The notes under the pieces were generated by a model that ran no database searches, was not told the DNA's origin, and saw only the letters and a list, made by a program, of their open reading frames with translations. DNA of 50,359 nucleotides from Solirubrobacteraceae bacterium (lineage in GTDB: Bacteria; Actinomycetota; Thermoleophilia; Solirubrobacterales; Solirubrobacteraceae): the NCBI GenBank assembly GCA_016463515.1, contig JAEMRF010000003.1, forward strand, positions 1-50,359, read 5' to 3'. A program made the position numbers and the translations under genes. Shown here piece after piece: positions 14,548 to 42,155 of this stretch; the first letter of the stretch is position 1; each line of letters opens with the position of its first letter.

Positions 14548-14690
14548 GACGGGGCAGTATTCCTGATCGAAGACGCCGACGACACCTCTGCTGCGATCCG
14601 GCGCGAATCTGCCATGAGGCAGCGACCACACTCGGTCGTTCGCGACACCCTGAAAGCCGGGTGATCGCGAGCCGCGGGGCGCGCGCTGCG

Positions 14691-15455: not shown

Positions 15456-15540
15456 GCGGGCAAAGGTAGCAAGGGGGCGTCCCTCAGCCACTGCCCAGCC
15501 ACGAGGTCCAACGCCGGCGGACCAACGAGCACGTTTGAGC

Positions 15541-22523: not shown

Positions 22524-23024
22524 CTAGCTCGGGATCTGGCCGAAGACTTCGAACTCGCGGATCGGGCCTTCGATGGCGCAGTCATCGGTGCGCTTGGTGA
22601 CGGTGCAGTCCACGCGGACAGCCGTCCACCAATACTTCGCGGGTGTGTTGGTCCAGAAGGGCTGGAAGGCGTTGTAGACCGGCACCGTGTGGGTGAAGAC
22701 CTTCCCGCCTTCAGACTTCATCTCGCGGATGTAGGTGGACTTCTTCACCGAGCTCGCGTTGACGTCCTTGAGCAGGTTCTTGTTCTTGGAGACCACGACG
22801 AAGACCGGGCCGCCGTCGCTTCTGACCTTGAACGGGACCTGGGTAGAGACGGCCGTGCCGTAGCTGGCGCCTTGATCCTTGTGCTGCTCGGCATACGCCT
22901 CGGAGACGGGGAGCAGCAAGCTCGGCGCCGGCCCGGCTGCGGCCGGCACGGGCATCGCGAAGGCAGCTCCAAAGAGCATGGCGGCGCCGGCACGCCGCGC
23001 AGCAGACGGAACGGAGATCGACAT
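22524..23024 (-). CDS. Small secreted protein of unknown function
   Basis: 166 aa from ATG 23024. Signal peptide at about residues 1-30 (AGAAMLFGAAFAMPVPAAA). The mature part is strand-rich with aromatic residues (YWWTAVRVDC) and two cysteines, Cys140 and Cys149, likely a disulfide. No family recognised. The -10 TACGGT ends 7 nt before the ATG, so the mRNA is probably leaderless. It is divergent from the RING gene and shares its pair of AACGTT boxes, which ties it to the conjugation/T7SS genes. Confidence 0.72.
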   Translation of the reverse strand: MSISVPSAARRAGAAMLFGAAFAMPVPAAAGPAPSLLLPVSEAYAEQHKDQGASYGTAVSTQVPFKVRSDGGPVFVVVSKNKNLLKDVNASSVKKSTYIREMKSEGGKVFTHTVPVYNAFQPFWTNTPAKYWWTAVRVDCTVTKRTDDCAIEGPIREFEVFGQIPS

Positions 23025-23031
23025 GCGTTCG

Positions 23032-23108
23032 ACCGTATCGATCCGTGCCCGCAGTTCCGAGCGCAGACCAACGTTGCGTTGCTCAACGTTGACTGCCGGA
23101 CCTACGCT
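23032..23108. promoter_or_regulatory. Divergent double AACGTT-box promoter (secreted protein / RING)
   Basis: Two boxes, AACGTT 23070-23075 and 23085-23090, lie 15 bp apart. The first is 33 nt from TACGCT (23103-23108) for the RING gene. The second is 53 nt from TACGGT on the minus strand (23037-23032) for the secreted protein. 33 and 53 differ by two helical turns. Confidence 0.6.
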
Positions 23109-23144
23109 CGGCGCTCGCTCCACTTCCTCTCTGCTGAGCTCCGC

Positions 23145-24152
23145 GTGCCCCAACCTCCCAACTTCGCACCCACCCCCGACGCGGCCGTCGGCCTCCAGTG
23201 CCCGTATTGCCAGACCCAGATGGGCGCGATGGAGCTGGCCGCGGGCTGTGGCGACTGCGGGACCACCCACCATCAAGAGTGCTGGATCGAAAACCAGGGC
23301 TGCGCGGTGCCGGGCTGTGAGAGCGCCCCGGATCCACTCGCCGCAACCGCTGCCGCTCCTGCAGCGGAGTACGCCGGCGCAACCGCTGGGCCGTCCGCCC
23401 CAGCCGGGCGGATATCGATCCCGGTCGACGACGCGCCGCGCCGCGGCGGACTCGGGCGCCGCACCACCCCAACGGTCTCGGTCCCGACCGGTTTGCCACC
23501 GAGCCCTCGGAGCTCGCGTCGCCCGCTCGTGGCGATCGGTGTGGTCGTGCTCGTCGTTGCGGCGGTCGTCGGGTTTCTCCTCTCGTCGGGAGAGAACTCG
23601 ACCACCACCGCGAACGCTCCAGCCACCTGCGACAGCAAGCCCGGCTCCTGCACCGATCGCACGGTCGGTGGAACGCCGCACTCGCTGACGGAAGCCGAGG
23701 TCAAACGTGAGGTCCAGGACCTCATCCGTGGGTACTACGGCGCACTCATGAGCGGTACCGAGGCCGACCGTGAGCGCGCCCGCGGGATGCTGTCCGCGAG
23801 CGAGCAGGCCCGGCTGGACACCGACGCAGCCGCCGCGAGCCAATGGGAGAGCCAGGCCACGCGCATCAGCGACCTCCTTCAGGACGCCGATGCAGCGCAG
23901 GTCGTCAACGTGCTGAACTCGCTGGAGAGCAGCCAGAGCACCGGCGTCGCGCGCGTGCAGGTCACAGGGATGGGCTGGGCCGAAAGCAGCTGCGCGGGTG
24001 GAAACTTTGCCGGCGTGACGTGGGCCCAGCACGTCGGCGACGAAGCCACCGGCACCTGGCGCCTGGACCCCAACCCGAGCAAGGAGGGCCGCTTCACCGA
24101 CGGCGAGCTCGATCAAGCGCTCGGCGCGACCTGCCTGGCCAGCGCCCGGTAG
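23145..24152 (+). CDS. Membrane-anchored prokaryotic RING-type protein (E3 candidate)
   Basis: 335 aa from GTG 23145, chosen because the promoter lies at 23103. Residues 19-58 bind zinc in RING-like order: Cys19-x2-Cys22, Cys35-x2-Cys38, His42/His43, Cys46, Cys53, Cys58. This matches what I know as prokaryotic RING family 1. A flexible part with RISIPVDDAP (89-98) leads to a TM at about 128-147 and an outside domain of about 185 residues with three Cys. The RING end is predicted cytoplasmic, where E1, E2 and Ubl act, so it could direct Ubl transfer to proteins at the membrane or T7SS. E3 activity is inference; some such zinc domains only bind proteins. Confidence 0.8.
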   Translation: MPQPPNFAPTPDAAVGLQCPYCQTQMGAMELAAGCGDCGTTHHQECWIENQGCAVPGCESAPDPLAATAAAPAAEYAGATAGPSAPAGRISIPVDDAPRRGGLGRRTTPTVSVPTGLPPSPRSSRRPLVAIGVVVLVVAAVVGFLLSSGENSTTTANAPATCDSKPGSCTDRTVGGTPHSLTEAEVKREVQDLIRGYYGALMSGTEADRERARGMLSASEQARLDTDAAAASQWESQATRISDLLQDADAAQVVNVLNSLESSQSTGVARVQVTGMGWAESSCAGGNFAGVTWAQHVGDEATGTWRLDPNPSKEGRFTDGELDQALGATCLASAR

Positions 24153-24176
24153 CGAGGTCCTGGCAAACCGTCCGCG

Positions 24177-25103
24177 TCAGCGAAGCGATGCGGACGTCGG
24201 CCACAGCGGCGCCAGCGGAGCGTCGCTCGGCAACACCGCCGCGAGCTCCGCGGCGGTCTGTTCGAGGCGGTCCAGACTCGTGCGCAGGCACTCGCTGACG
24301 TGGCCCGGCACGAGCCACTGGGCCTCACGCAGCGGTGCGGCCATACCGTGGGTGCCTTGGATACGCAGCACGGTGCGCGCAAGCACGCCGCTCGCTGCTC
24401 CCTTGGGCCCAGCGGCCAGCCGGCTCTTGGGGAGGGGCGTAGGCCAGCGCGCCGCGAGCGGCACGGTCACGTCGACGACCACGCCAGCGGCGACGTCCTG
24501 AACTCGATAGGTACCGCCGGCATCCTCGACCAACTCGCGAGCGCTCGTGATGCCCCGCCCCGGGATCAACGGCTTGCCGGGGAGTCCACCCGGGCTCGTG
24601 ACGATGACCGAGAGTGCGCGCCCTCGCGTGGTGGCCCGGACGCTGACGGTGGCGTCGGGTGGTCCGTGGCGAGCTGCGTTGCCGAGCGCCCCGCAGACCG
24701 CCACGGTGAGCGCCGCGGCTTGCGCGGGAGCGAGCGTGCGGCGCTGCGTGGCGATCTCGCTGCGCTCGCGCACGACCATCGACGGGTATCGCGACGCGAC
24801 ACCGCCGGCGGCACGGCCCAGCACCGCGCCGACCGTGAGGGTCGGGCGGCCGCTGCTGGCTCCGACGTCGGCCAGTAGCGCCAAGAGTGCCAGCAGCTCG
24901 TCGCTGCGGGCCAGACTGCGCTCGGCGGTCGCCACTGCGACCGCGCGAGCCTGCGGATCGTCCAGCGCGGTGGCCGCGTCACGCCACCGGCTGGTTGCCA
25001 GCGAGCAGGCGCGAGCCGCGTGCTCCAGCGCGTCGAGCGCGGCCACGATCTCGCCGCCGCTGAACGGCGCCGTCCCGGGGCCCGCTGCAGCGAGGTCGGT
25101 CAC
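24177..25103 (-). CDS. Soluble histidine-kinase-like ATPase
   Basis: 308 aa, no TM. Residues 1-110 are helices that could form a dimerisation part, though no clear phosphoacceptor His motif stands out. The HATPase region (about 150-235) has the N-box-like GNAARHG, the PGGLPGK segment and GRGITSARELVEDAGG, as in NarL-type sensor kinases. A C-terminal helical extension of about 70 residues is unusual. GTG 25103 overlaps the stop of the response-regulator-like gene (GTGA), so the pair is co-translated. It is convergent with the RING gene 24 nt away. It may control the AACGTT-box genes, but there is no direct evidence. Confidence 0.72.
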   Translation of the reverse strand: MTDLAAAGPGTAPFSGGEIVAALDALEHAARACSLATSRWRDAATALDDPQARAVAVATAERSLARSDELLALLALLADVGASSGRPTLTVGAVLGRAAGGVASRYPSMVVRERSEIATQRRTLAPAQAAALTVAVCGALGNAARHGPPDATVSVRATTRGRALSVIVTSPGGLPGKPLIPGRGITSARELVEDAGGTYRVQDVAAGVVVDVTVPLAARWPTPLPKSRLAAGPKGAASGVLARTVLRIQGTHGMAAPLREAQWLVPGHVSECLRTSLDRLEQTAAELAAVLPSDAPLAPLWPTSASLR

Positions 25104-26236
25104 GCGGCGGACGGCACCACCCGCGCCAGGGCCGCAGAGGCCTGCTGGGAGGGCTCGTGGGCCAGGTCGGCGAGCACGTGGAGGAGGAAGAGGAGGCGCA
25201 CTCGTTCGGCGTCGTCCGGGGCGGAAGCTTCGAGCACGCGGGAGACCTGCAGCTGGCGCCCGGCTTGATCGCGTGAGTCCAGGGCGCCAAGTGCGCGGTG
25301 CCAGACGCGGCCGCAGCGTCGGACCAGAGCGATGTCGGCATCGGAGATTCGGGCGAGCTCGAGCAACCGCTCATCAGCCAGCGCCGAGACGGCAAGATCG
25401 ACCGTGCCTGCGCGGACGGGCTCGGTGAGCGTGTCGCGCACGCACCCCGCGAGGAACCCTTGCGCGAGCGGGACTACGAGGTCCACCGGGACGCCGCGGG
25501 CTTCCTTGACCGCGCGCTTGAAATGGGCAACGGCTGATCGCGCGCCGCTGATGTCCTTGAGCTCGCGGTTCGTGATCGAGTCGCTGACGCCCTGCGCGAG
25601 GTTGCCGACGATGTAGAGGTCGCCAGGGCGCGGCTCGAACCCGAAGTGCTCGACGAAGCGATGCTTGATTGACCGATCGACCTCGACCGGGGTCTGCGCA
25701 CGCGGGAACGCGCGGCGGCGGCCGCCAGCCTCCGGATCGGTCACGTGGCGCAGGGCCTCGCAGGCGTCGCCATGAAGATCCTCTCCGGTGGTTTGCAGGA
25801 CCGCCGTGACGCAGGTACCCAGTTCGGCGAGCACCGCGAAGCAGTTGTGGGCCGTCATCGCGACCGGCGTGCAGCGCGCGCGAAGCCGAGGATCATCGTC
25901 GATCGTTCGCAGCAGTCGCGCGCCGCGCATCTGCCCCGTGCGGCTCTCCAGGTCGATGAACGCCACCGCGTGATCGACATGCTCCACGACCGTGAGGACC
26001 TCGGTGCGGCTGCTGCAGTCCACGACCTCACAGCCGGCGTAGCGCCCCAGGTCAGCGCCCACCGCGCGCTGGGCGCTGAGCAGCAGGTGCCGACGGAGCG
26101 GCAACTGCTGGGGATCGTCGTCATAGACGACGATCGCAACCCGCGGCTCAGCGCGCATCGGCCGGCGGCTCGGGTGCATGGTGCGTGCGCGGCGCACCGG
26201 GACGGCCTGCAGCGCACGATCGGCGACGCCCGTCAT
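25100..26236 (-). CDS. Response-regulator-like protein with receiver-like head and diverged HTH
   Basis: 378 aa if started at ATG 26236; ATG 26158 is also possible (352 aa). The head begins RVAIVVYDDDPQQ and contains AVAFIDLESRTG, fitting a receiver with acidic pocket and phosphoacceptor-like Asp, though the later Thr/Lys are not obvious. A segment FGFEPRPGDLYIVGNLAQG followed by SDSITNRELKDI and FKRAVKEA resembles a diverged LuxR/sigma4-like helix-turn-helix. A long helical domain fills the C-terminus. It is the first gene of a pair with the soluble kinase. A paralogous plan is seen in the gene at 45347-46600. It is a candidate regulator of this locus. Confidence 0.62.
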   Translation of the reverse strand: MTGVADRALQAVPVRRARTMHPSRRPMRAEPRVAIVVYDDDPQQLPLRRHLLLSAQRAVGADLGRYAGCEVVDCSSRTEVLTVVEHVDHAVAFIDLESRTGQMRGARLLRTIDDDPRLRARCTPVAMTAHNCFAVLAELGTCVTAVLQTTGEDLHGDACEALRHVTDPEAGGRRRAFPRAQTPVEVDRSIKHRFVEHFGFEPRPGDLYIVGNLAQGVSDSITNRELKDISGARSAVAHFKRAVKEARGVPVDLVVPLAQGFLAGCVRDTLTEPVRAGTVDLAVSALADERLLELARISDADIALVRRCGRVWHRALGALDSRDQAGRQLQVSRVLEASAPDDAERVRLLFLLHVLADLAHEPSQQASAALARVVPSAA

Positions 26237-26425
26237 CGCGGCACCGCGCCCCGGTGGCGCCACCACGTCGACGTGCAATGCGTTCGCGCTGCGGCGCGGC
26301 TAGGGGTCGGACGCTGCGGATCGTGATACATCGGCTCGCCGCGCATGTTGCCCGTGCGCCAGCCCGACGACAAACACTTTGCATTGGAATTCGCCTTTGC
26401 CTACCGCGCTGCACGTTGGTGATAG

Positions 26426-27271
26426 TCAGCCGATCTTCTTGATCGTCGTGGGAGGTCCGGTCGGCAGCCCGGGTTTGAGGTCGGGAACCGACATCGCGTT
26501 CGCGGTCGCCACCTTCAATGTGGTGCCGTCGATGGTCGGAGAGAACTTGAAGTCAAACGACCCAAACTTTCGGTCGAGCTTGTGGTCGAAGAAGAACTCG
26601 AACGCCAGCAAGCAGGCGCCGCCCTTGAACCTGAGGGTGCCCTTGGCCAGGTCGCCCGCAGCGACCTTCTTGCGCTTGCCCTTCTTCGTTTGCGCGTAGA
26701 CCGTCGCTGACGGCTTCAGCCGTTTGGTCGTGCAGGTGTTCTTGCTCAGTTTGATGCCGGGGACCGTGACGGCCGCCTCGTAGCGCAGACCGTTGAACCC
26801 GAGCCGCTTGACGCCCTTGAACGCCTTGGGCGTCAACAGCACGCTGGGGAGTTTGACCGCCCCAGTGATCTTCAAATTGCCCGCCATCGCGGTGATGGAG
26901 AGCGTCGCGCCGGGCTTAACGTCGCCGGGCATCGTGAGCTTCAAGACGGTCTCGAACGCTCCACTCGGCTTGGCCTGCGGGCCGAGCTGCGGCACGGGGA
27001 CCGACGCGGTGTCCACGAGCCAACCCGGCGTACTGCTCGAGAACGTCACTGTGAACGGCGCCACCGTGACCTCCGTCTTGTTCAGCACCGTCACACCGAC
27101 GAAGACAGCCCCCTCTGCATCCTGCTGTAGGACGCCGAACTTGACGTCGGGCCGAGCCACGTCGTAGGTCGTCTGGGCGGGCACCGCGACCGGATCGACA
27201 ACTGAAGCAGCGACAGAGCTGGGAACGACGGTCAACGTTAGAACGGCAATCGACAGGAGGAGCGTGCGCAC
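26426..27271 (-). CDS. Secreted beta-domain protein
   Basis: 281 aa. Signal peptide at residues 1-22 (RTLLLSIAVLTLTVVPSSVAA). The first half (about 30-135) is a beta sandwich of the kind seen in conserved-repeat or CARDB-like adhesion modules (GVTVLNKTEVTVAPFTV). The second half is Lys-rich with two Cys and a KKGKRKK stretch. Function unknown, presumably at the surface. Divergent from the JAMM gene at 27332. The gap to the preceding regulator gene (26237-26425) is less GC-rich and presumably holds that operon's promoter. Confidence 0.72.
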   Translation of the reverse strand: MRTLLLSIAVLTLTVVPSSVAASVVDPVAVPAQTTYDVARPDVKFGVLQQDAEGAVFVGVTVLNKTEVTVAPFTVTFSSSTPGWLVDTASVPVPQLGPQAKPSGAFETVLKLTMPGDVKPGATLSITAMAGNLKITGAVKLPSVLLTPKAFKGVKRLGFNGLRYEAAVTVPGIKLSKNTCTTKRLKPSATVYAQTKKGKRKKVAAGDLAKGTLRFKGGACLLAFEFFFDHKLDRKFGSFDFKFSPTIDGTTLKVATANAMSVPDLKPGLPTGPPTTIKKIG

Positions 27272-27331
27272 GGTGGAATCCTGGATGGGTGGGGAACGTC
27301 GTTTGGGGGACGACCGTCGCCACTATTCCTT

Positions 27332-28165
27332 GTGACTGACTCCGTGAACAGCTTTCGGCCTCCCAACGTTCGTTTTGCCCTCCCGGGGTTCGCGCCGGGG
27401 GTTCGCGACGCCATTTACTCGCACGTCTATGCCGACCCCGCCAACGAGGTCGGCGGACTGCTGGCCGGCGACCGCCGGCCCGATGGCGTGATGGTGGTGG
27501 GCGCCGTCCGGGCGCAAGGGGCCAGCGGCGATGTCACGAGCCTCACGTTCACCCACGAGGCGTGGACGAACATGCTCGCCGAGCTCGAAGCGCAGTACCC
27601 CGGCGCTGAGATCGTCGGCTGGTACCACTCCCACCCAGGCCACGGCATCTTCCTGTCCCGCCACGACGAGTTCATCCACCGAAACTTCTTCCCGGCGGCC
27701 TGGCAGTTCGCGATCGTCGTCGACCCCCACCATCACGACGAAGGGCTGTTCATGTGGCGCGAGGGCAACCTGCCGCGCGTGGCCGCAGCGGCGGTGGATC
27801 CGCGGTGGGCCGGTCCACAGCCGCTCGCGGCCCAGCGTCCGCCAGCGCAGCGGCGGCGGGTGCCACCAACCCAGCGCTCCCCGTCGCCGGATCCTGCAGG
27901 GCCCCTGGAGCCGCTGCAGCCGGAGCGCCCGACCGAGCCGAGCGTCGACGCAGGCGCGCCGCGGCGCGACCCGCGGCGCCAGCCTCGGTCAGCCCAGGAT
28001 CGAGCCCGTGACCGCGAACTGCGCGCCCGTCGACGGGCCGAGTTCGCACGCGACCCCAGCTCGCGCCCCGCCCCTGTGCAGGCGCGTGCCATCGCAGCAG
28101 CGCGGGCAGGGGCTGTGGTCGCGATCGGGTTCGCGATCGGCGCGGTCGTCCTGCTGCTGACCTGA
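27332..28165 (+). CDS. Tail-anchored JAMM (JAB/MPN) metallopeptidase
   Basis: 277 aa from GTG 27332 (GTG 27344 possible). The JAMM set is complete: Glu39 in NEVGGLLAG, His99-Ser-His101-Pro, Ser109 and Asp112 in HSHPGHGIFLSRHD. Such enzymes cleave isopeptide bonds next to ubiquitin-like proteins or process their precursors. A Pro/Arg-rich linker follows, and the last 25 residues are a single TM (AGAVVAIGFAIGAVVLLL), so the catalytic domain faces the cytoplasm. It is a paralogue of the JAMM domain at 32081-33334 (shared FTHEAW, GWYHSHP, GIFLS, FIHxNFF). Convergent with the zinc-ribbon membrane protein. Confidence 0.9.
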   Translation: MTDSVNSFRPPNVRFALPGFAPGVRDAIYSHVYADPANEVGGLLAGDRRPDGVMVVGAVRAQGASGDVTSLTFTHEAWTNMLAELEAQYPGAEIVGWYHSHPGHGIFLSRHDEFIHRNFFPAAWQFAIVVDPHHHDEGLFMWREGNLPRVAAAAVDPRWAGPQPLAAQRPPAQRRRVPPTQRSPSPDPAGPLEPLQPERPTEPSVDAGAPRRDPRRQPRSAQDRARDRELRARRRAEFARDPSSRPAPVQARAIAAARAGAVVAIGFAIGAVVLLLT

Positions 28166-28187
28166 GCAACGACGACCGCCCGTCGGA

Positions 28188-29840
28188 TCAGACGTCCGGA
28201 CGTTTGGGCCGCGTCCCGACGCCCGCCGTGCGGGCCTCCACGCGCAGCCCTTCAACCCGGGCCTCCCACGTCTGCTTGGAGCCCTCGAGCTTGGCGTCGA
28301 TATCGCCGTTGAGGGCCTCGTACTCAGCCCATGACGGCATCGAACGAGCGGGCTCCTCTGCGAACCACGCCTCATCGACTGCGTCGAGCATGTTGGAGAG
28401 GCCATCGAGCGACCGCAGGACGGGTTCCACGAGCGCGGCGTGCTCGGTCTGCGCGGCGGTCGGCGCCTGCGAGGCGTACTGCTGGAGATCCGCGATGGTG
28501 CTCTGCCGGTCGTTCTGGAAGCCGAGCACGCGCTCTTTGGCGGCCTGGTAATCCTCGCCCTCGGAGAAGTCGTAGTCGTCGACGTCCTCCACGAACTCGT
28601 CGACCTTCGTGCGGTCCTGCTCGTAGGAGGCCAGGACCCCGCGAACCTGCTGGCGGTACTCGGCAATGCGAGCGCTCCGGCGCTGGGCCGCGGCCACACG
28701 GACGTTGTAGGCCTTCAGCTTCCCTCGCCACTGACGCAGCGCCCAGGAGGCTGAACGGACCGTCTTGTCGACCGTCTCCGTCGAGCGGCCAACCCCGCTG
28801 AGATCGATGGACGTCTGGCCTGGGAGCTCACGTGCGGCGATCGGCGCCTGTGCGTCGTTCATCGAGCGCGTCGCCTGCTGCAGCGTGGTCTTCGTCTCCG
28901 ACCAGCCGGGGAGCTGCGCCTTGAGGAGGTCGGACTGCTCGAGCCGCTGCAGTCCTCCGAGACCAGCGAGGTAGGCGCGCTGCGCCCGCAGGAGGGCGAC
29001 GGTCTGGTCGCGCAGCTGCGTGTTCTCGATGGTGGCGGCGGTCTGCTCGCGACCTTCCAGGTCAGAGGCGGCGGTAGCGGCTTCGCGACCGACCGTGCGC
29101 AGCGTGACGAGCTTCGTCGCCCGGCCGGCGCGACCAGCCAGATCGGTGACGCGCGTCTGCGCGGCCTGAAGGACGGAACCCGCGGTGCGCTCGTCGGCGG
29201 ACCCGCGCCCGAACAGCATCCAGCCGCCGATCCCGAGCACGATGAGGAGCAGCGCCGCTGCGGGGCCGAGCACGTGCGGGCGGCGCCACAGTGGGCCGCC
29301 CCCGCCACTCTCGCCGCCTCGCGGCAGTTGCGGCGGAGCCGGCGGCCCGCTCGGTGGCACGAACGCGGGCATCGTGCCGGTGACGGGCTGCCATGGCGCC
29401 GGCGGCGCAGGAGCAGGCCCAGCGGGCGGCGCCCAGGCCGGCTCCGGCAGCACCGCAGGCGGCGCCGGAAGCGGCGCGGCGGGCCGCGCGACCGTGGGAG
29501 CTTCGGCGTCGCTGCCGAGATCGTCGAGCTCGACGACCAAGCTCTTTCGCGGCGGGCCGACGCCGGGCAACGGGCTGTGGCCCCCGGTGGGTTGAGCCGC
29601 GGCTGTTGGCGGATCCATCGGTGCGGCGGCGGTCGGGCCAGACCCATTGGTCGATGCCGGGGACGGCGCCCGCCGGGGCCGAAGCACCACCTCGAAGTCG
29701 CCGGTGTCCGAGGCCGTCACGACGGAGTTCCCTGGCGTGCCGGAGTCGGCTGCGGGCGCAGCTTCGCCCAGCCGCTGGCCGCAGGCACGGCAGCGCTCGT
29801 CGGCGGCGCCTCCTAGCGCACCGCAGGCAGGGCAGGTCAT
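28188..29840 (-). CDS. Zinc-ribbon membrane protein with long extracytoplasmic coiled coil
   Basis: 550 aa. Residues 3-20 form a zinc ribbon (Cys3, Cys6, Cys17, Cys20). The long disordered cytoplasmic part carries two short strand-like motifs, DFEVVLRP (48-55) and SLVVELDD (100-107), then a Pro-rich stretch. One TM lies at about 190-211. The remaining 330 residues are almost entirely helical with heptad-like Leu/Ala spacing, so a long rod outside the membrane is expected. No family recognised. The topology recalls large helical T7SS membrane proteins such as EsaA only in outline. It shares a divergent AACGTT box with the gene at 30003. Confidence 0.78.
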   Translation of the reverse strand: MTCPACGALGGAADERCRACGQRLGEAAPAADSGTPGNSVVTASDTGDFEVVLRPRRAPSPASTNGSGPTAAAPMDPPTAAAQPTGGHSPLPGVGPPRKSLVVELDDLGSDAEAPTVARPAAPLPAPPAVLPEPAWAPPAGPAPAPPAPWQPVTGTMPAFVPPSGPPAPPQLPRGGESGGGGPLWRRPHVLGPAAALLLIVLGIGGWMLFGRGSADERTAGSVLQAAQTRVTDLAGRAGRATKLVTLRTVGREAATAASDLEGREQTAATIENTQLRDQTVALLRAQRAYLAGLGGLQRLEQSDLLKAQLPGWSETKTTLQQATRSMNDAQAPIAARELPGQTSIDLSGVGRSTETVDKTVRSASWALRQWRGKLKAYNVRVAAAQRRSARIAEYRQQVRGVLASYEQDRTKVDEFVEDVDDYDFSEGEDYQAAKERVLGFQNDRQSTIADLQQYASQAPTAAQTEHAALVEPVLRSLDGLSNMLDAVDEAWFAEEPARSMPSWAEYEALNGDIDAKLEGSKQTWEARVEGLRVEARTAGVGTRPKRPDV

Positions 29841-29879
29841 CGGATCACCGTCGGCTGGATCAGGTCGTCCACGGTGCCA

Positions 29880-29971
29880 ACCCTGCCGACCTGAGCGCGC
29901 AGACCAAGGTCAACGTTGGCCGTCGAAAAGGCCTCCAGACGTTGCTCGGCGCCCCGGCGCGTTCTTATGGT
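29880..29971. promoter_or_regulatory. Divergent AACGTT-box promoter (zinc-ribbon protein / VITEDDL operon)
   Basis: AACGTT at 29912-29917 is 54 nt from TATGGT (29966-29971) for the plus-strand gene and 32 nt from CAGGGT on the minus strand (29885-29880) for the zinc-ribbon gene. Leaders of about 30 nt follow on both sides. Confidence 0.5.
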
Positions 29972-30002
29972 GGGCCTTCGGTCCTTGGGGACCGACTTGC
30001 TC

Positions 30003-30602
30003 ATGAGCCGCACCGTCATCACCGAGGACGACCTCGCCCCCGACCCTCCGCCAGCGACCGGCGAGCACGCTGCGGCGGGCGTGCCGCCTGCGCCTGCGCC
30101 CCCGCTCGTTGGGAGCAGGCACGGTGCGGCGAGCCAGCTGAACCGGGCCTGGATGGCCGGCGTGGCGGTCCTTGCGATCCTCGCGATCGGCGGAGCATTC
30201 CTGCTCGGTCAGGCGTCGCGGCCAAGTGAGGACGAAGTGGCCGGCGAAGTGCGTGACGCGATCCGCGAAGTGCGCGACGGCATGCGCGCCGAGCGCGCTG
30301 CGATCACCAAGCGCGCCTTGGAGCGGCAGCGGATCGCGCTGCGGGTCAGCCACCGTCGCGAGCTCGCGGCGCTGCGCAAGCGGTACGGGATCCCTGCGCC
30401 GACGGCGCAGGCCAAGGCGCCGGTTGCCAAAGCACCGGCAGCCGTGCAGGCCCCCACTGGTGGAGGCACGTCCGGTGGCAGCGCGCCACGGGCGCCCTCG
30501 CCACCTCCCGCGCCAACACCGAACCCCGAGCCAAAGCCTCAGCCCAACGATCAGCCCACGCCAAACGCCATCCGCGTAGAGCCGAGTGCTGATCTCAAAT
30601 GA
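30003..30602 (+). CDS. Membrane protein with N-terminal VITEDDL motif, copy 1
   Basis: 199 aa from ATG 30003. Begins SRTVITEDDL, then a Pro/Ala linker, one TM at about 50-70 (AGVAVLAILAIGGAFLLG), a charged helix (about 75-125) and a long Pro-rich tail. The short N-terminus is cytoplasmic by charge. The same N-terminal phrase recurs in the next gene, so the two are paralogues whose conserved part is this short motif. No family recognised; probably a structural or scaffold subunit. It begins an operon of three genes running to 32056. Confidence 0.75.
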   Translation: MSRTVITEDDLAPDPPPATGEHAAAGVPPAPAPPLVGSRHGAASQLNRAWMAGVAVLAILAIGGAFLLGQASRPSEDEVAGEVRDAIREVRDGMRAERAAITKRALERQRIALRVSHRRELAALRKRYGIPAPTAQAKAPVAKAPAAVQAPTGGGTSGGSAPRAPSPPPAPTPNPEPKPQPNDQPTPNAIRVEPSADLK

Positions 30603-30630
30603 CCGCCGACCCCCACACCGGAGCGCGCTG

Positions 30631-31185
30631 ATGGCTCGCCGCGTCATTACCGACGACGACCTCTACCCCGTTCCCCATCAGGGCGGAGCCCCGCCGGCAC
30701 CGCCTGCGGCGCCGGGGTACCCCGTCGGGCCCGTCGCCGAGCCGCCGCAGCCGTGGCAGGTGGTCGATACCACCGCCCCGTTGGCAGCGGAGCGTTCCAA
30801 GGGCAACCGGGCGATGCTGATCGTCGGCGTGATCATTGCCGTCACGCTGGCCGGCGTGGCCGGGTTCTTCGGCGGCCGAGCCAGCAGGCCCAGCGACGCC
30901 GCGATCGCCCAGGAGACCAAGCGCGCGGCCGAGAGTGCCGCCGAGAAGATGCGCATCCAGGCCGACGGCGAGCTCAAGAAGGCTCGCGCTGAGGCGCAGC
31001 GCTCAAAGGACCGCGCCGTGGCGCGCGCCGAGAGCAAAGCGCGCAACGACGGCCGCAATGCCGGCTTGGCGCAAGGCCGGGCCGAGGGCACCGCCGAGGG
31101 AACGGCTCAAGGCCGAGACATCGGCCGCCAAGAGGGTCTCTCGACCAACCTTTGTTACGACGTCGGCACGCCCTACTCGTGTTGA
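30631..31185 (+). CDS. Membrane protein with N-terminal VITDDDL motif, copy 2
   Basis: 184 aa from ATG 30631 with GGAG 7 nt upstream. Begins ARRVITDDDL, then a Pro linker, a TM at about 60-80 (LIVGVIIAVTLAGVAGFFGG), and a strongly charged helix rich in Ala, Lys, Arg and Glu (about 85-165) that reads as a coiled coil. It ends in a short segment with two Cys (LCYDVGTPYSC). Paralogue of the preceding gene, 28 nt downstream of it. Confidence 0.75.
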   Translation: MARRVITDDDLYPVPHQGGAPPAPPAAPGYPVGPVAEPPQPWQVVDTTAPLAAERSKGNRAMLIVGVIIAVTLAGVAGFFGGRASRPSDAAIAQETKRAAESAAEKMRIQADGELKKARAEAQRSKDRAVARAESKARNDGRNAGLAQGRAEGTAEGTAQGRDIGRQEGLSTNLCYDVGTPYSC

Positions 31186-31225
31186 CGCCACCCCGCGACC
31201 GCCGCCGATGCGGCCGGAGAAGCTG

Positions 31226-32056
31226 ATGCGCAACGCCACGCTGACCGCCACCACGCTCGTGCTCGTCACCGCCGGCGATGCCGCTGCCAAAACGCCTCAG
31301 GCGGTGACGAAAGCCGCCACCAGCGTGGAGATCGTGCGGTCCAACACCGGGCAGGGCTCGGCCGTGCGTGTGGGCCCCAAGGGCGGCTCGGTCACGTCGA
31401 CGGTGCTCGTCTCGCGGACGAGCGAGATCGCCCTCACCGGCGCCGACAAGCGCTCGACCCCGGCCGACCGCGCCGAGAGCGATGCGCCCACCGGGCTCGT
31501 CCTGCTCAACCGTCGCGGCACCGCGGCCGCAGCTGGTCTCACGCCGGCGCCAGGGCGAGCAAAGCGCGGCCAGACCGTCTACCTGATCTCGCGCCCGCTC
31601 GGAAAGAATGCGACCACGGCCACGATCACGGCGACGAGGGTTCGCAGCTCCACCCGCGAGAGCTTGGGCCTCACCGCGAAGAACCGCTCAGGCCTCAATG
31701 GCGGCGCCGTCGTCGACGCCCAGGGGCGCCTGCTCGGCATCACTGTGCCGCCGCTCCCCGGCAGCGGCCTGGGCAGCCCGCAGCGCGCGATCCCGGTCAG
31801 CGCCACTCCCGTGCCACAGAGCAGCGCCGTCGCGACCACCAGCTCCGGCTTTCCCGCCGTGCCCGTGACCATCGGCCTCGGCGTGCTGCTGCTCGCCTCG
31901 CACCTGCTGCTACTGCGCCGCCGCCGCGTGGCCGCGACGGCACCAGCCGTCGCGCCGCTCCCGACGCCTCAGGCGCCAGCCGCCCCGGCCGCCACCGCAT
32001 CGGCGACGGCCGACCCCGCGGACGACTTCGAGATCACCCTCCGCCCGCGGGGCTAG
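31226..32056 (+). CDS. Membrane-anchored trypsin-like pseudoprotease
   Basis: 276 aa from ATG 31226 (GGAGA 5 nt upstream; ATG 31208 lacks a ribosome site). A signal-like start is followed by a domain (about 25-195) whose strands follow the HtrA/trypsin plan, ending in SGLNGGAVVDAQGRLLGI. True proteases have GNSGGP there, so the nucleophile Ser is missing, and no catalytic His segment is visible. A TM at about 213-232 and a cytoplasmic tail ending ADDFEITLRPRG follow. I read it as a catalytically dead, binding-type protease fold outside the membrane with a docking tail inside. Confidence 0.7.
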   Translation: MRNATLTATTLVLVTAGDAAAKTPQAVTKAATSVEIVRSNTGQGSAVRVGPKGGSVTSTVLVSRTSEIALTGADKRSTPADRAESDAPTGLVLLNRRGTAAAAGLTPAPGRAKRGQTVYLISRPLGKNATTATITATRVRSSTRESLGLTAKNRSGLNGGAVVDAQGRLLGITVPPLPGSGLGSPQRAIPVSATPVPQSSAVATTSSGFPAVPVTIGLGVLLLASHLLLLRRRRVAATAPAVAPLPTPQAPAAPAATASATADPADDFEITLRPRG

Positions 32057-32064
32057 GGCTGGCG

Positions 32065-32079
32065 GCGCGAGGCTCGCGC
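32065..32079. terminator. Hairpin in convergent gap
   Basis: GCGCGA (32065-32070) pairs with TCGCGC (32074-32079) over a 3-nt loop, in the 24-nt space between two convergent operons. Weak evidence for a shared terminator. Confidence 0.35.
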
Positions 32080-32080
32080 G

Positions 32081-33334
32081 CTACTTGAAGCTCTCGTCAC
32101 TCGGGACAGCACCACCGGACGACCCGGCAGCGGACGACCCGGCACTACCGGATGACCCGCTTCCCGCGGATGACGATCCAGCGCCACCCGACGACCTAAC
32201 CCCACCCGACGACCCAGCGCTACCCGATGACCCAGCTGCGCCTACCCCCCCAGGCACCGGAGCTGCGCCGCTATCGGGAGCAGATTTCGCCTTTTGGGCG
32301 TCCTCGTAGTCCTTGACCGCCTTGACAGTCGCTGCGGCAAACGCCTTCTCGCCCGCTTCTTGCCCCTGGCGAACGGCCTTGGCTTCGTTCTCGGCCTTCT
32401 TCTGTGCAGCGGTCGCGACGCCCTTGTCGGTCACAGAATCACTGCCGACGGCGCCGCCGTCCCCGCCGCTGCCGGTGGCCACGGCGATGCCGACGCCGCC
32501 GATGAGCACGACGCTGGCAGCAGCGGCGAGGACCGCTCGACGACGGCGAGCTGCCAGGCGCGCCTGCTCGGCGCGCGGATCCATCGGGCCCCGCGGCGCG
32601 GCGCCCACTGCTCCAAGGCCGGCGACCGAGGCCGGCCGACGCGGCGGAGCGTTCCCCGCGACGGCGTCGGCGCCAACGACCAGTCCGGTGCCTGCGCCAT
32701 CGTGCGCCGACGGCGCTGCAGACTCATCCGGGTCGGTGAGGTCGTCGAGCGCGATCGTGAGTTTCCCGGTCGAGGCAGGCGCCGAGCCATGCTTGAGGAT
32801 GCGCGGCGCATGCTTCACCGTGCGGTCGGGGGCATCACCCGTGACCGCCAGTCCGGTCTCGCCTGCCAGGTGGTCGGTCGGGAAGCCGATCACCCGCTCG
32901 AACAGCACGATCTCACCGTCGCGCCAGCCAAAGATGCCTTCGCTGCGCTCGATCGGGTCAACGACGTACGCGAACTGGTGTTGGTCGCCGAAGAAGTTGC
33001 TGTGGATGAACAGATCAGGCTCTGACAGGAAGATCCCGAAGGTTGGGTGTGAGTGGTACCACCCGACGATCTGCGTGTTGGGGAAGTCCTCCTCCTGACG
33101 CTCCAGGATCAGCTCCCACGCTTCATGCGTGAACGTCACGCTTGCGGTCTCACCGATTGCCTCCAGCGCAGGGATCACGCCCACCACCAGCGGTCGGCCG
33201 GTCCGCTCGTCGACCTCGCCCACGAGCACCCCGCCGACCTCGTGATCGGGGTGCGCGAAGACGTGCCGGTGCATCTCCGTCCGGTAGCGGGCCGCGATGT
33301 CGCCGATCCGCAGTTCCTGCACGTCAGCGCTCAT
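32081..33334 (-). CDS. JAMM (JAB/MPN) metallopeptidase with TM and Ser/Gly tail
   Basis: 417 aa from ATG 33334, overlapping the E1 stop by 4 nt. JAMM residues are complete: Glu32 in HEVGGVLVG, His94-Ser-His96-Pro, Ser104 and Asp107 in HSHPTFGIFLSEPD. A disordered part with KLTIALDD (191-198) leads to a TM at about 267-287. Outside lies a Lys/Ala/Glu helix and a low-complexity Ser/Gly/Ala tail made of short DNA repeats. Last gene of the E2-FHA-Ubl-E1-JAMM operon, so it is the likely deconjugating or processing enzyme for that Ubl, held at the membrane. Confidence 0.92.
   Translation of the reverse strand: MSADVQELRIGDIAARYRTEMHRHVFAHPDHEVGGVLVGEVDERTGRPLVVGVIPALEAIGETASVTFTHEAWELILERQEEDFPNTQIVGWYHSHPTFGIFLSEPDLFIHSNFFGDQHQFAYVVDPIERSEGIFGWRDGEIVLFERVIGFPTDHLAGETGLAVTGDAPDRTVKHAPRILKHGSAPASTGKLTIALDDLTDPDESAAPSAHDGAGTGLVVGADAVAGNAPPRRPASVAGLGAVGAAPRGPMDPRAEQARLAARRRRAVLAAAASVVLIGGVGIAVATGSGGDGGAVGSDSVTDKGVATAAQKKAENEAKAVRQGQEAGEKAFAAATVKAVKDYEDAQKAKSAPDSGAAPVPGGVGAAGSSGSAGSSGGVRSSGGAGSSSAGSGSSGSAGSSAAGSSGGAVPSDESFK
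32094..32250. repeat. Short tandem repeats encoding the Ser/Gly tail
   Basis: Imperfect units of about 9-15 bp built on GACGACCC / GATGACCC recur about a dozen times. Read on the minus strand they encode the SSGxAGSSG tail of the JAMM protein. This kind of repeat can change copy number by slippage. Confidence 0.6.
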
Positions 33335-34545
33335 CGCGCCTCCTCCTCGACCAGCTGGGCGTCGACGATCTGCCATGGGTGCGGGTCGTCGAGCATGAAG
33401 TGCACGCGGCCCGAGAGCGAGCGTGCGGTCAGCGCGTCGGCCGGGGGCAGCCCGAGGTCCGCGGCCGACAGGTTGAGCAGGTCGGCATCGACCGAGCTCA
33501 CCGAATGCCGCACGTCGAGCGCGCGCTCCGCGCTACAGACGGGACACAGGGCGCTGCCCACCGTCGCCTTCGTCAGCAACACCGGCTCGTCGTCGCCCCG
33601 GCCATGCACCGGACACGTGAACGCCACGATCACGTCATGCTCTAGATCGATGGTCACGTCGGCCAGCGGGAGTCCATGCGCAGCCGCGCCGCGCTCCAGG
33701 AGCTCGCGGAAGGTCTCGTCACGTGGGACGACCTCGGCCTGCGACAGCGCGTAGGTGTCGTGGCTCATGCATGCGTCCTGCCGCGGGTAGTCCACGATGT
33801 AGGAGTCGTGCGTCATGCCATTCACGACGAAGCCCTTGCCGGCCATGCTCGTCGGCAGGCGGTCCTGATGCAGCAGCTTGATGGCCTCCTGCACCTGCAT
33901 CCCAGCGACGACGCTCGCGGACGTTCCGGTGGTCGGCACCTTCCCGTCGAGCATCTCCTCGCGCGTGAGCAGCGCACACGTCCGGCGGGCGGCGAGCAGC
34001 TCGTGATCGCGCTCGCTCATCGTGCACTCGTAACACGCCGAATCCGGCGGCGTGAAGACCCGCACCACGCCCATGAGTCCCTCGATGGCGCCGTCGACCC
34101 AGGGGATGCCGGCCTTCCAGCACGCCTGGTTGGTGTGCAGCCGAGCCTCGCGATTGTCGAGCCCACCGAGGACGAGGTCAAAGCCTGTGAAACTGCCGAG
34201 CCCGATGGCGTGGCGGATGTCGCCGACGACCGGAATGAACTCGACATCGGGGTTGAGCCCGGCGGCAGCCTCGCAGACGACCTCCGCCTTCATGCGCCCC
34301 TCATCTGAGGACCGAAAGAACACGCAGCGCGACAGGTTCGAGTTCTCGATCGTGTCCATGTCGGCGACGACCACCGTCCCCACGCCGGCCAGCGCGAGGT
34401 TCTTCACGAGCTCGTTGCCGAGCGCGCCCGCACCCACCACGAGGACGCGAGCGGCCGCCAGCCGGTCTTGCTCCCACCAGCTGATCAGCGACTGGCGGTG
34501 ATAGCGGCCGTTCTCGTCGCCCGGCTCGGTCTGCGCAGCGGACAC
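33331..34545 (-). CDS. E1-like Ubl-activating enzyme (ThiF/UBA family)
   Basis: 404 aa from GTG 34545 with a GGAG-type site in the 11-nt gap after the Ubl. The Rossmann part has GAGALG (38-43), Asp62/Asp64 in ADMDTIENSNLSR with Arg73, Lys86 and Asp130, the residues that bind ATP and adenylate the Ubl C-terminus. Zinc cysteines are Cys171/Cys174 (CYEC) and Cys334/Cys337 (CPVC). Cys190 in RRTCALL precedes the VAGMQVQEAIKLL helix and is the best candidate for the thioester Cys. A C-terminal extension of about 150 residues beyond the core may recruit E2. It lies directly between Ubl and JAMM genes. Confidence 0.93.
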   Translation of the reverse strand: MSAAQTEPGDENGRYHRQSLISWWEQDRLAAARVLVVGAGALGNELVKNLALAGVGTVVVADMDTIENSNLSRCVFFRSSDEGRMKAEVVCEAAAGLNPDVEFIPVVGDIRHAIGLGSFTGFDLVLGGLDNREARLHTNQACWKAGIPWVDGAIEGLMGVVRVFTPPDSACYECTMSERDHELLAARRTCALLTREEMLDGKVPTTGTSASVVAGMQVQEAIKLLHQDRLPTSMAGKGFVVNGMTHDSYIVDYPRQDACMSHDTYALSQAEVVPRDETFRELLERGAAAHGLPLADVTIDLEHDVIVAFTCPVHGRGDDEPVLLTKATVGSALCPVCSAERALDVRHSVSSVDADLLNLSAADLGLPPADALTARSLSGRVHFMLDDPHPWQIVDAQLVEEEAR

Positions 34546-34556
34546 GTCCTGCTCCG

Positions 34557-34817
34557 TCAGCCTGCGGTGATCTCGGCGACGAGCCGCAGCACGTCGCCGT
34601 CGCCCACGCCCGCCGTCTCGAGCGTCTCGTTGTCGCCGATCTGACGACCGCTGCGCTTGTGGTGGAATTTGTAGGAGAGCGGCTGGCCGTCGGGGCCAAC
34701 GCTGGGAAGCTCCATGAGCTCGATCAGCTTGGCCATGATCCGGCCGGCGGGAGCGTTCCCGGGGACGGTCGCGTCCTCGGTCTTGCTCCCGGTCGCGTCG
34801 ATGACGGTGATGTCCAT
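34557..34817 (-). CDS. Free ubiquitin-like protein (YukD/EsaB-like) ending in Gly
   Basis: 86 aa from ATG 34817. The order is strand (MDITVIDATG), strand, helix (AGRIMAKLIELMEL), strands (LSYKFHHKRSGRQI) and the closing LETAGVGDGDVLRLV, the ubiquitin/YukD plan. It ends EITAG, so a flexible tail with a C-terminal Gly is exposed without processing, as required for E1 activation; ubiquitin itself ends in GG. YukD/EsaB proteins are T7SS parts, and here the protein is followed by its presumed E1 after 11 nt. An AACGTT sequence lies 28 nt upstream but without a -10 at the usual distance. Confidence 0.88.
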   Translation of the reverse strand: MDITVIDATGSKTEDATVPGNAPAGRIMAKLIELMELPSVGPDGQPLSYKFHHKRSGRQIGDNETLETAGVGDGDVLRLVAEITAG

Positions 34818-34875
34818 GGGTGGTCGTGATCCTCGGAGTCGTTGAACGTTGCGTTGGGATGAGCCCGGCGGAGGC

Positions 34876-35853
34876 TCAGTCGCGCTCTTGGAAGAGCAGG
34901 GTCGTCGCGCCGATCTGGATCTGGTCGCCCGAGCGCAGCGGTCGGGCTCGGATGCCAGCGCCATTGACGGCGACGGGTGCGCCGTCGAGCGAGCTCAGGA
35001 CGCGCCGTGGACCGTCCACCGCAATCTGCGCGTGGAACGGCTGGGCGCCCGGGTCCTTGATCAGCGTGATCTGGCACTTGGGTGCCGATCCGATCGACGT
35101 CACGTCGTGGTAGAGGATGAACTCCTTGCCAGCCATGCCGCCCGCGATCACCCTGATCCAGGCTTGACGGCGAGCTCCTTCCACGAGGCCGATCGCCGCG
35201 CCGGTGCAGATGCCGATCGCGGCCAGTCCGATGAGCCGCGCTTCCGCGTCACCATCGACCCGCTGACCGACGTAGTGGAACAGCGCGCCGCCGATGGCCC
35301 CACCGATCAAACCGCCGATCAACCCGTTGACCGCCTTGCGACCGGAGCGCTCGGTCAGGCCACCGACGAGGCCGATGCCCACGCCGAACGCCGCCCAGGC
35401 CAGCGCTCGCAACAGATAAAAGCGCGGCGCGCCTGGGTCTTGGGTCTGCTGGAGCTGGTCGAACAGCAGGTACGACAGCGCCCCCGCCACTGCGCCTACG
35501 AGCGCCCCGACCGCCGCCGCCAGCGCCCCGCGAACCAGTGCGCGGTCCCAGATGCCGTCACGCACATCGGATGCCGCGCCGACGATGAGTGAGTAGATGG
35601 TCGCAAGGACCGCGGTGTAGAGCGCGACCGGTCCCAGGCTGCGGCCGTCGGCCACGCCGGCTGCCTCCGTCACCGCCCAGCCGATCACGATCGCGACGTA
35701 GCCCAGCAGCGCGCCACCGACGGCGAGCCCGAGGGTCGCCTCCCACGCCGGGCGGCCACCGACGTCGCCACCGATCCGGGAGCGAGCAGGGCCGGCGCTG
35801 ACCTTCGGAAGCGCTGAGAGGTCGCGCTCGCCCGGGGTCGTCGGGGCGCTCAC
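34876..35853 (-). CDS. Multi-pass membrane protein with C-terminal FHA domain
   Basis: 325 aa from GTG 35853, overlapping the E2 stop by 4 nt. About six hydrophobic segments (residues 30-240) are rich in Gly and Ala with GxxxG spacing (NGLIGGLIGGAIGGAL), suggesting tightly packed helices. The C-terminal 85 residues are an FHA domain (EFILYHDVTSIGSAPKCQI, FHAQIAVDG, VNGAGI), although the usual Arg of GR is Ser and the SxxH is replaced by PFHA, so phospho-Thr binding is uncertain. It may be the membrane platform that gathers E2, Ubl and phosphorylated T7SS proteins. Confidence 0.82.
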   Translation of the reverse strand: MSAPTTPGERDLSALPKVSAGPARSRIGGDVGGRPAWEATLGLAVGGALLGYVAIVIGWAVTEAAGVADGRSLGPVALYTAVLATIYSLIVGAASDVRDGIWDRALVRGALAAAVGALVGAVAGALSYLLFDQLQQTQDPGAPRFYLLRALAWAAFGVGIGLVGGLTERSGRKAVNGLIGGLIGGAIGGALFHYVGQRVDGDAEARLIGLAAIGICTGAAIGLVEGARRQAWIRVIAGGMAGKEFILYHDVTSIGSAPKCQITLIKDPGAQPFHAQIAVDGPRRVLSSLDGAPVAVNGAGIRARPLRSGDQIQIGATTLLFQERD

Positions 35854-36491
35854 GCGCTCGGCTCCCGGCGCAGCGTGATCGCAAAGTCCTCGTCGTCGGC
35901 GAGCGGCACCGTCGTCGTGCTCTCCGTCGCCGCCGATGGCGCTTCGCCGGTGGCAGCTGCAGACGCAGGGCGCAGCTCGATGTCGAAGTCGGCAGTCCCG
36001 AGATCGACATCGCCGATCGGGAGGAGCTCCTCGTGCTCGGCCACCCACCGAGCCGCCACGGCGTTGAGCGGGCTCCCCACGTTGTACACGCGGAACTGGA
36101 GCATCTCGCCCATCTTCACGATGATGTCCGTCAGGGGCTGGCCCGCCGACCAGTAGTCGGCGATGCAGTACTTCGTCGGATCGACGTTGGGATGGAACAC
36201 GTCGCTCTTGGGCACCGCGATCGGCTGCTCACGCGGGTAGCCGAGCGGCAATTGCAGGTCGACGATGTGCTCCTCGGCCACGAACGGCTGGTCGCCCTCG
36301 ATGCGCAGGCTCTTCAGGAGATAGGTGATCCGGTAGCGCTCGGGCGGCATGCCGCCCAGTGGCTCGACCCGCACGTGCGGATGACCCGCCAGCTCAGCGC
36401 GGATGGCCTCAAAGTCAGCCATCAGGCGCCGCTGACGCGGGCTCATCGACGGCTGGACGGGCGGGGTTTGGGGCGGCGTAGGGCTCGACAT
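35850..36491 (-). CDS. E2-like ubiquitin-conjugating enzyme
   Basis: 213 aa from ATG 36491 (GTG 36524 is possible). The UBC fold (about 20-155) shows the strand run before FHPNV with His100-Pro-Asn102, then catalytic Cys109 in YCIADYW with Trp114, and the following helix LTDIIVKMGEML. HPN and Cys spacing matches active E2 enzymes. The C-terminal tail carries two copies of a short motif, ADFDIELRP (167-175) and EDFAITLRR (201-209), that also occurs in other proteins of the locus. First gene of the five-gene conjugation operon, divergent from the secreted-domain protein at 36604. Confidence 0.9.
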   Translation of the reverse strand: MSSPTPPQTPPVQPSMSPRQRRLMADFEAIRAELAGHPHVRVEPLGGMPPERYRITYLLKSLRIEGDQPFVAEEHIVDLQLPLGYPREQPIAVPKSDVFHPNVDPTKYCIADYWSAGQPLTDIIVKMGEMLQFRVYNVGSPLNAVAARWVAEHEELLPIGDVDLGTADFDIELRPASAAATGEAPSAATESTTTVPLADDEDFAITLRREPSA

Positions 36492-41219: not shown

Positions 41220-42155
41220 ATGAGCACGCCCGAGTCCCCACCACCGCGCCGGCGGCTGGTGGTCTCCTTCGACGACGAGCCCGCAGCTCCGTCGCTTGCC
41301 AAGCCTCCTGCGGCAGCCCAACCGACCGCCCCTGCGCCACCACCCAGGCCTGCCCCGGCCAGCGCGCTGCCGTCGTTGCCCGCTCCGCGCCCACCGCTGC
41401 AGTTCGGCGACGGCTCACCGCCGCCCCCGCCCGGCGCTGGCCAGAGGTACGCTGCTCCGCCTCCGCCACCGCCGACCGGCCACGTGCAGCCGCCTCCGCC
41501 GCCCGGCCCGGGCGGCGCCGCAGGACGGCCGCTTGGATCTCGGGGAGCGCGGTTCCTGTCTCGCTTCGTCGACGGTCTCATCCTCACGCCCGTCTACGTG
41601 CTGTTCTTCTTCGTCGCCTCCCTGGCGTTCGCCGGCATTCTCGCGACCGGTGTCGAGAGCTGTGGCTACGACGGGTTCGGGGACTACGTCTGCTCGGAAG
41701 ATTCGGTCATGGCCGCAGGGGTCGGCGGCTTCGTCGTGGCCTTCGTGATCTTGCTGATCGGCAACGCGATCATGTTGGCGATCCTCGCCGCACTGACCGT
41801 CCGCAAAGGCGAACGCAACGGCCAGACGCTCGGCCGGCAGCTGGTGAACGTGCGACTGGTCCGTACCGACGGCCGACCTGTCGACTGGAGCGTCGCGCTG
41901 CGGCGTGAGGCGCTCTTCCCCACCTTGCTCGCGCTCCCGCTCTGGCTCGGCACGCTCGCCGACATGTTCTGGCCGCTGATCGACTCCCGCAAGCGCCGGC
42001 TCGTCGACATCTGGTGTGGAACCGAGGTCCTCCTGGCACAAGGCACGGCGCCTGCTCCCGTCGGGCCTTCGGCCCCTCCACCGCACGGTGCGCCTGCGTG
42101 GGGCGCTCAAGCCGTGCCACCGCCACCTCCCGGCCCGTTCGGAGGACCGCGATGA
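41220..42155 (+). CDS. RDD-family membrane protein, copy 1
   Basis: 311 aa, ATG with GGAG 7 nt upstream. A disordered cytoplasmic head begins with RLVVSFDDE (12-20) and continues Pro-rich to about 100. The RDD domain (about 105-270) has GARFLSRFVDGLIL, Arg-Asp-type polar residues in the first TM, and NGQTLGRQLVNVRLVR before later TMs. Some RDD proteins are ion exchangers, but most have unknown roles; near T7SS they are frequent. The head motif resembles short motifs in the RING, JAMM and zinc-ribbon proteins. Overlaps the next RDD gene by 4 nt. Confidence 0.88.
   Translation: MSTPESPPPRRRLVVSFDDEPAAPSLAKPPAAAQPTAPAPPPRPAPASALPSLPAPRPPLQFGDGSPPPPPGAGQRYAAPPPPPPTGHVQPPPPPGPGGAAGRPLGSRGARFLSRFVDGLILTPVYVLFFFVASLAFAGILATGVESCGYDGFGDYVCSEDSVMAAGVGGFVVAFVILLIGNAIMLAILAALTVRKGERNGQTLGRQLVNVRLVRTDGRPVDWSVALRREALFPTLLALPLWLGTLADMFWPLIDSRKRRLVDIWCGTEVLLAQGTAPAPVGPSAPPPHGAPAWGAQAVPPPPPGPFGGPR

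Follow-up and report, generated by a model that had tools for sequence, protein, structure and literature searches.

A ubiquitin-like conjugation gene set in Solirubrobacteraceae belongs to a conserved bacterial module that probably acts at the membrane

In a 50,359-nucleotide stretch of a Solirubrobacteraceae genome (contig JAEMRF010000003.1; this whole stretch is called the window) we analysed a gene set between positions 22524 and 36491 that encodes a ubiquitin-like protein (Ubl) and the enzymes of its conjugation, next to genes of a type VII secretion system (T7SS). It belongs to a conserved module, of which it is the Actinomycetota branch; the module consists of a Ubl, an E1, a JAMM peptidase, an FHA-domain membrane protein (FHA-membrane protein), a RING protein and an E2. 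We consider it likely, with a probability of roughly 0.7, that the set of the window makes up a complete, reversible system for Ubl conjugation, put together at the cytoplasmic membrane and independent of the adjacent T7SS. Profile searches and two structure models support a conjugation set that is complete and active-looking.

Components of the conjugation set

Open reading frames and profile matches in the window place E2, FHA-membrane protein, Ubl, E1 and JAMM genes in a single tight minus-strand operon. The E2 gene (35850..36491; an alternative upstream GTG is possible at 36524) ends in a 4-nt GTGA overlap with the start of the FHA-membrane protein gene (34876..35853). After this come a 58-nt gap, the Ubl gene (34557..34817), an 11-nt gap and the E1 gene (33331..34545), which shares a 4-nt ATGA overlap with the gene of JAMM peptidase 2 (32081..33334). 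The RING gene (23118..24152, start codon uncertain) and the gene of JAMM peptidase 1 (27332..28165) lie nearby but outside the operon, on the plus strand.

The E1 has an adenylation domain, zinc-ligand CxxC/CxxH pairs and an extra C-terminal region. It matched Pfam ThiF with an E-value of 1.9e-53, and Cys190 was invariant in all 28 relatives, in which the CxxC pairs were also conserved; in a tree, the E1 sequences grouped by phylum. The JAMM residues (E, HxH, S and D) were invariant in 32 of 32 sequences.

The E2 and RING proteins of the window score slightly below the Pfam cut-offs, and for this reason we checked both calls through family members in relatives. The E2 scored 23.9 bits against UQ_con (cut-off 27 bits), a model that was matched by 20/20 members of its family, and both HPN and the catalytic Cys109 were invariant in 20 aligned relatives. 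The E2 family profile matched 265 sequences in the PDB (best 2.4e-12), those among the matches listed being E2s only. An AlphaFold model of the E2 (predicted local distance difference test score, pLDDT, 86.5) matched eukaryotic UBC-fold enzymes at a probability of 1.00. A search of the same genome with Prok-E2_B (PF14461) gave 0 matches, and its control was likewise silent. The RING protein matched Prok-RING_1 at 7e-6 with 26.3 bits, under the 29.1-bit cut-off, and with 30.5 bits, over the cut-off, in a six-frame search; 15 of 18 family members matched this model, and the eight zinc ligands (C4HC3) were invariant in 23/23 sequences. Although the RING gene is ~9 kb away from the E1 gene, we count it with the set because, among 61 relatives, Prok-RING_1 and E2 were present in exactly the same two genomes and in no others.

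These results bear out the initial annotation, made from the DNA letters and their translations, in its list of parts: an E1 with Cys190 and CxxC pairs, an E2 with HPN and Cys109, a free Ubl ending in Gly (see below), a RING-type protein, two JAMM peptidases with all metal and catalytic residues, and coupling of the five operon genes by 4-nt overlaps or short gaps. It had also called for profile searches; these placed the E1 and the Ubl directly, and the E2 and RING by way of their relatives.

Some genomes have additional copies. The RING family has three members in Patulibacter minatonensis, with different C-terminal regions; two of them, Prok-RING_1 proteins encoded far from the module (L098, 6402-7850; L099, 5751-8453), are possible additional E3 ligases. 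Another genome (G377; L011, 2651-5770) encodes two RING proteins and, between E1 and JAB, a second E2.

The Ubl and its C-terminus

The Ubl, identified by profile, alignment and structure model, has 86 residues and ends in LRLVAEITAG. It matched Pfam YukD (E-value 3.4e-12), as did all 28 Ubls in the alignment. Among 84,980 genomes scanned, 28 loci encode relatives (51-79% identity); they come from Actinomycetota, Armatimonadota, Planctomycetota, Lentisphaerota and one deltaproteobacterium. In every one of the 28, EITAG closes the conserved region, and 13 extend by 1-19 unrelated residues past it: GA, SECSTSR, RVVV, SADPAGAIPL, RGIAP, Q, MCACHH, RCKNFTK, a 19-residue tail, TTQQAVPVMS, NLT, KMK and GVHE. 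The tail GA is that of the Patulibacter medicamentivorans form. Since the glycine is fixed and the tails are unconstrained, trimming of the precursor at the Gly of EITAG would be expected; as judged from the alignment, the tailed Ubls are thus probably processed to this glycine, while the Ubl of the window is encoded already in mature form.

An AlphaFold model of the Ubl (pLDDT 93.8) was nearest to Caldiarchaeum ubiquitin in the PDB, followed by ubiquitin and NEDD8. The best 50 structure matches were conjugated Ubls (ubiquitin, NEDD8, SUMO) or variants of these, and YukD was not among them. The N-terminus of EccC2 was considered as a further Ubl relative and found unsupported (hhalign 4%).

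A conserved six-part module

Across the loci the Ubl recurs with an E1, one to three JAMMs, an FHA-membrane protein, a RING protein and an E2. The order in Solirubrobacter pratensis is E2-FHA-Ubl-E1-JAB-RING, its first five genes matching the operon of the window, and most Planctomycetota have the fixed order Ubl-E1-JAB-FHA-RING-E2. Wherever contigs are long enough an E2, and usually a RING protein, accompanies the Ubl; parts that are absent are mostly so at contig ends, with exceptions such as L038, which retains only Ubl and FHA.

The FHA-membrane protein of the window is a polytopic FHA/YscD-like protein (by its C-terminal domain), as assigned from Pfam, orthologues and a transmembrane (TM) estimate. 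The initial annotation had taken such proteins as T7SS context; its orthologues make it instead a standard and near-constant partner in the Ubl module. Because the position of the phosphothreonine-binding arginine (IGR) reads IGS in the window and in most orthologues, the FHA domain is probably not phospho-binding, and we rejected it as a phosphothreonine reader. At two Patulibacter loci (L017, 6779-9124; L018, 114-2474) an FHA-ABC transporter, divergent from the E2, replaces the FHA-membrane protein; it carries the motif DDVDVVLRSRG / DDEIEVVLRPRA.

Membrane anchors and short peptide motifs

Hydropathy predicts one TM helix each in the RING protein and both JAMM peptidases (C-terminal in JAMM peptidase 1), and several in the FHA-membrane protein. 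The RING protein, a transmembrane E3 candidate, has its C4HC3 domain at the N-terminus and a predicted extracytoplasmic domain. One TM helix each was also predicted in four further proteins encoded within the region: a zinc-ribbon protein (28188..29840, minus strand), a protein with a trypsin/DegS-like protease domain (31184..32056, plus strand, start uncertain), and two small plus-strand proteins (29976..30602 and 30586..31185). The zinc-ribbon and trypsin-like proteins are probable accessory proteins or substrates.

Two short peptide patterns recur in these proteins. FHA proteins carry pattern A, [KR][ILVFM]x[IV][STA][FWYLVDEIH][DE][DE], at their N-terminus, and JAMM and E2 proteins carry it in linkers. 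Module proteins (25,465 residues) contained it 16 times, against 0 times in neighbouring proteins (39,644 residues) of the planctomycete-group loci. A motif matrix trained solely on instances from outside the class ranked as its top five, among 37 window proteins, JAMM peptidase 2 (linker motif KLTIALDDL), an RDD-domain membrane protein (RLVVSFDDE, N-terminal), the small protein at 29976 (TVITEDDLA, N-terminal), the RING protein (RISIPVDDA) and the small protein at 30586 (RRVITDDDL, N-terminal); no T7SS motor stood out. The RDD protein (41220..42155, plus strand) lies beyond the set and is a candidate partner; a DNA-level search for motif A matched its gene and one unrelated site.

Pattern B, DF[DE][IV]xLRP, had three matches in the 3.94-Mb genome, all in frame within genes of the region: the zinc-ribbon protein (GDFEVVLRP), the C-tail end of the trypsin-like protein (DDFEITLRPRG) and the E2. 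Shuffled windows gave no match. A looser DNA form gave background matches in 7/7 genomes searched, so only the strict form was used genome-wide. The C-tail of the E2 carries a looser form in tandem (ADFDIELRPA, EDFAITLRRE), which recurs in Armatimonadota; this tail has low confidence in the AlphaFold model and is therefore probably disordered. By predicted topology the motif instances are on the cytosolic side, and from their sequence both patterns may be docking peptides resembling SUMO-interacting motifs (SIM-like). The motif RLVISFDDE was seen at the N-terminus of a collagen-like (GXY) membrane protein in G377, encoded convergently to the module (L010, 19468-19998, the gene running past the locus end).

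Relation to the T7SS

The initial annotation had described the set as lying between T7SS motors, with Ubl conjugation controlling or marking the secretion machine at the membrane. Both motors lie to its left (6914-11251 and 17508-22073), as does a gene (22180-22470) that clearly matches a WXG100 profile, and no T7SS motor was recognised to its right in the window. Placement at the membrane agrees with the predicted TM helices; control of the secretion machine disagrees with how the two gene sets are distributed. BLAST searches for EccC1, EccC2 and WXG100 in the 28 module loci gave no match, and a whole-genome search with EccC2, a query positive in 15 class-survey genomes, found it in 0 of 19 module genomes. 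In the class survey (a 399-genome sample) EccC was present in 15 genomes and a clear Ubl in 4, and only the genome of the window had both. Ten T7SS loci of class relatives contained no module gene; their contents were kinases, WXG100, CHAP, and RTX or C1q proteins.

Since the module recurs in several phyla without a T7SS, and the T7SS loci of relatives lack the module, we regard the module as T7SS-independent and reject T7SS control as its general role. We rejected a chimeric contig as the source of the linkage: GC and tetranucleotide composition were uniform (tetranucleotide r 0.98-0.99) and hence gave no sign of one. The arrangement is most simply read as two independent systems next to each other, in a linkage that is specific to this lineage and looks incidental.

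Alternative readings

We weighed three other explanations. The first makes the Ubl system a regulator of the T7SS in this lineage, one that tags EccC, kinases or membrane subunits. The physical linkage is in its favour, with EccC2 and WXG3 directly ahead of the RING gene, as are the FHA domains in both gene sets and the fact that the only YukD match in the genome is this Ubl. Besides EccC being absent from the module genomes and the module from the relatives' T7SS loci, the Ubl was missing from 14 of the 15 class-sample genomes with EccC, and EccC1, EccC2, PK2, WXG1 and WXG2 of the window had no motif over shuffled expectation. We therefore think such regulation unlikely.

Still less probable is anti-phage defence of the Bil or E1-E2-JAB kind. 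The E1 partially matched the PADLOC E1-E2 and BilD models and the JAMMs weakly matched JAB models, but the top PADLOC score was 54 bits over part of the protein, with no match for the E2 or Ubl; we found no viral or plasmid homologues, and the transmembrane RING, the FHA protein and the fixed gene order are unlike Bil. A defence island was rejected on these PADLOC matches and the lack of such homologues.

Least probable is a Ubl that serves, unconjugated, as an EsaB/YukD-type subunit, with a different substrate or a part in sulphur transfer for E1, E2 and JAMM: the YukD matches of all 28 Ubls, the single terminal Gly and the ThiF-type E1 would suit it, but the Ubl is found in genomes without a T7SS motor, keeps an invariant EITAG followed by variable tails, has an E2 and usually a RING alongside, and resembles conjugated Ubls rather than YukD in structure.

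Several points nevertheless weigh against a T7SS-independent conjugation system. The Ubl terminus is Ala-Gly, with one Gly, not Gly-Gly. A YukD family member in B. subtilis is reported to be unconjugated (PMC1779556), and because of this, and because our Ubl is the sole YukD match in its genome, we keep an EsaB-like role in the T7SS in play at low probability. Late functional coupling of the Ubl set to the T7SS may also have occurred in this one lineage. Finally, the roles given to the motifs come from sequence comparison, and because we had spotted the patterns before testing them, their statistics measure specificity and are not an independent prediction.

Proposed mechanism

For the membrane-based conjugation system that we favour, we infer conjugation itself, glycine processing, the topology, the motif function and the substrates as follows. 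In tailed Ubls a JAMM would expose the terminal Gly of EITAG, a step that the Ubl of the window would not need. The E1 would adenylate the Ubl, load it onto Cys190 and hand it over to Cys109 of the E2. The transmembrane RING, with its extracytoplasmic domain, would then direct the tag onto cytosolic portions of membrane proteins close by, and the membrane-anchored JAMMs would take it off again. Short strand-plus-acidic peptides lie in disordered cytosolic tails of the E2, the JAMM, the RING protein and the accessory membrane proteins; they probably hold the set together by binding the Ubl or some other partner that they share, and the real partners of the kit are probably the co-encoded membrane proteins.

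Passage of the modifier from E1 to E2 to RING is established chemistry for these enzyme families. The steps proposed here are modelled on the reconstituted archaeal cascade (PMC5654768). The 20S proteasome (PF00227) was not found in the genome of the window, which is 93% complete, and was positive in 10 of 14 controls; degradation by this route is therefore unlikely, which points to non-degradative signalling.

Neighbouring genes

Between the RING gene and JAMM peptidase 1, two overlapping minus-strand genes (24177-26278) encode a HATPase_c_2-like, RsbA-like protein and a 392-residue protein, possibly a signalling pair. Adjoining the RDD gene is that of a single-TM protein (40022-41191) without a Pfam match, whose N-terminal domain is beta-grasp/YukD-like, with an hhalign value of 56% for the Ubl family. 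RTX and C1q-like secreted proteins are encoded beside the T7SS kinase (13621-15491), and similar ones occur near the T7SS of another genome (G250); they are possibly T7SS-associated.

Comparison with known systems and significance

The ubiquitin operon of Caldiarchaeum subterraneum (ubiquitin, E1-like, E2-like, small RING and the JAMM protein Rpn11, which trims the ubiquitin precursor) provides the same five activities (PMC5654768, PMC6043591), and complete bacterial E1/E2/RING/JAMM operons are mentioned in PMC5654768. The set of the window differs in being bacterial, in ending in Ala-Gly and not Gly-Gly, in anchoring its RING and JAMMs in the membrane and in its added FHA-membrane protein and tail motifs. 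EsaB/YukD/TsxB of the T7SS and the T7SSc-j variants, surveyed in PMC11217815, share with the window a beta-grasp fold, a Pfam YukD match and neighbouring FHA proteins and kinases; that survey reports Ubls without Gly-Gly and leaves JAB unmentioned. Our module differs in being T7SS-independent. BilABCD has a Ubl, an E2, a JAMM that exposes the terminal glycine and an E1 as well, but its four genes encode a two-domain ISG15-like Ubl and neither a RING nor an FHA-membrane protein (PMC11354881).

In the open-access literature that we searched, the six-part module is described nowhere. Burroughs, Iyer and Aravind reportedly predicted, in 2011, bacterial systems of YukD-like Ubl, E1, E2, JAB and Prok-RING, and are said to have proposed that YukD-like Ubls are conjugated; the set of the window is probably a member of that class. 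Judged by its genes, it would be a variant marked by the near-constant FHA-membrane protein, EITAG with variable tails, anchored RING and JAMM proteins, tail motifs and T7SS independence, some of which may already be in the 2011 work. Complete cascades of E1, E2, RING and deubiquitinase have been studied biochemically in archaea; in bacteria, to our knowledge, few apart from those of defence operons have been put to the test.

The module spans several bacterial phyla and ties conjugation to transmembrane RING proteins. With the Ubl set and the T7SS told apart, and with a tail motif by which partners can be traced, old predictions become testable in laboratory strains; the module occurs in named species with genomes (P. 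minatonensis, P. medicamentivorans and S. pratensis). Tentatively, and at somewhat under even odds, we suggest a widespread bacterial form of membrane Ubl signalling, in which transmembrane RING E3s with extracytoplasmic sensor domains would recruit their partners via SIM-like peptides in cytosolic tails. If this is true, partners and substrates would be readable from the genome by motif.

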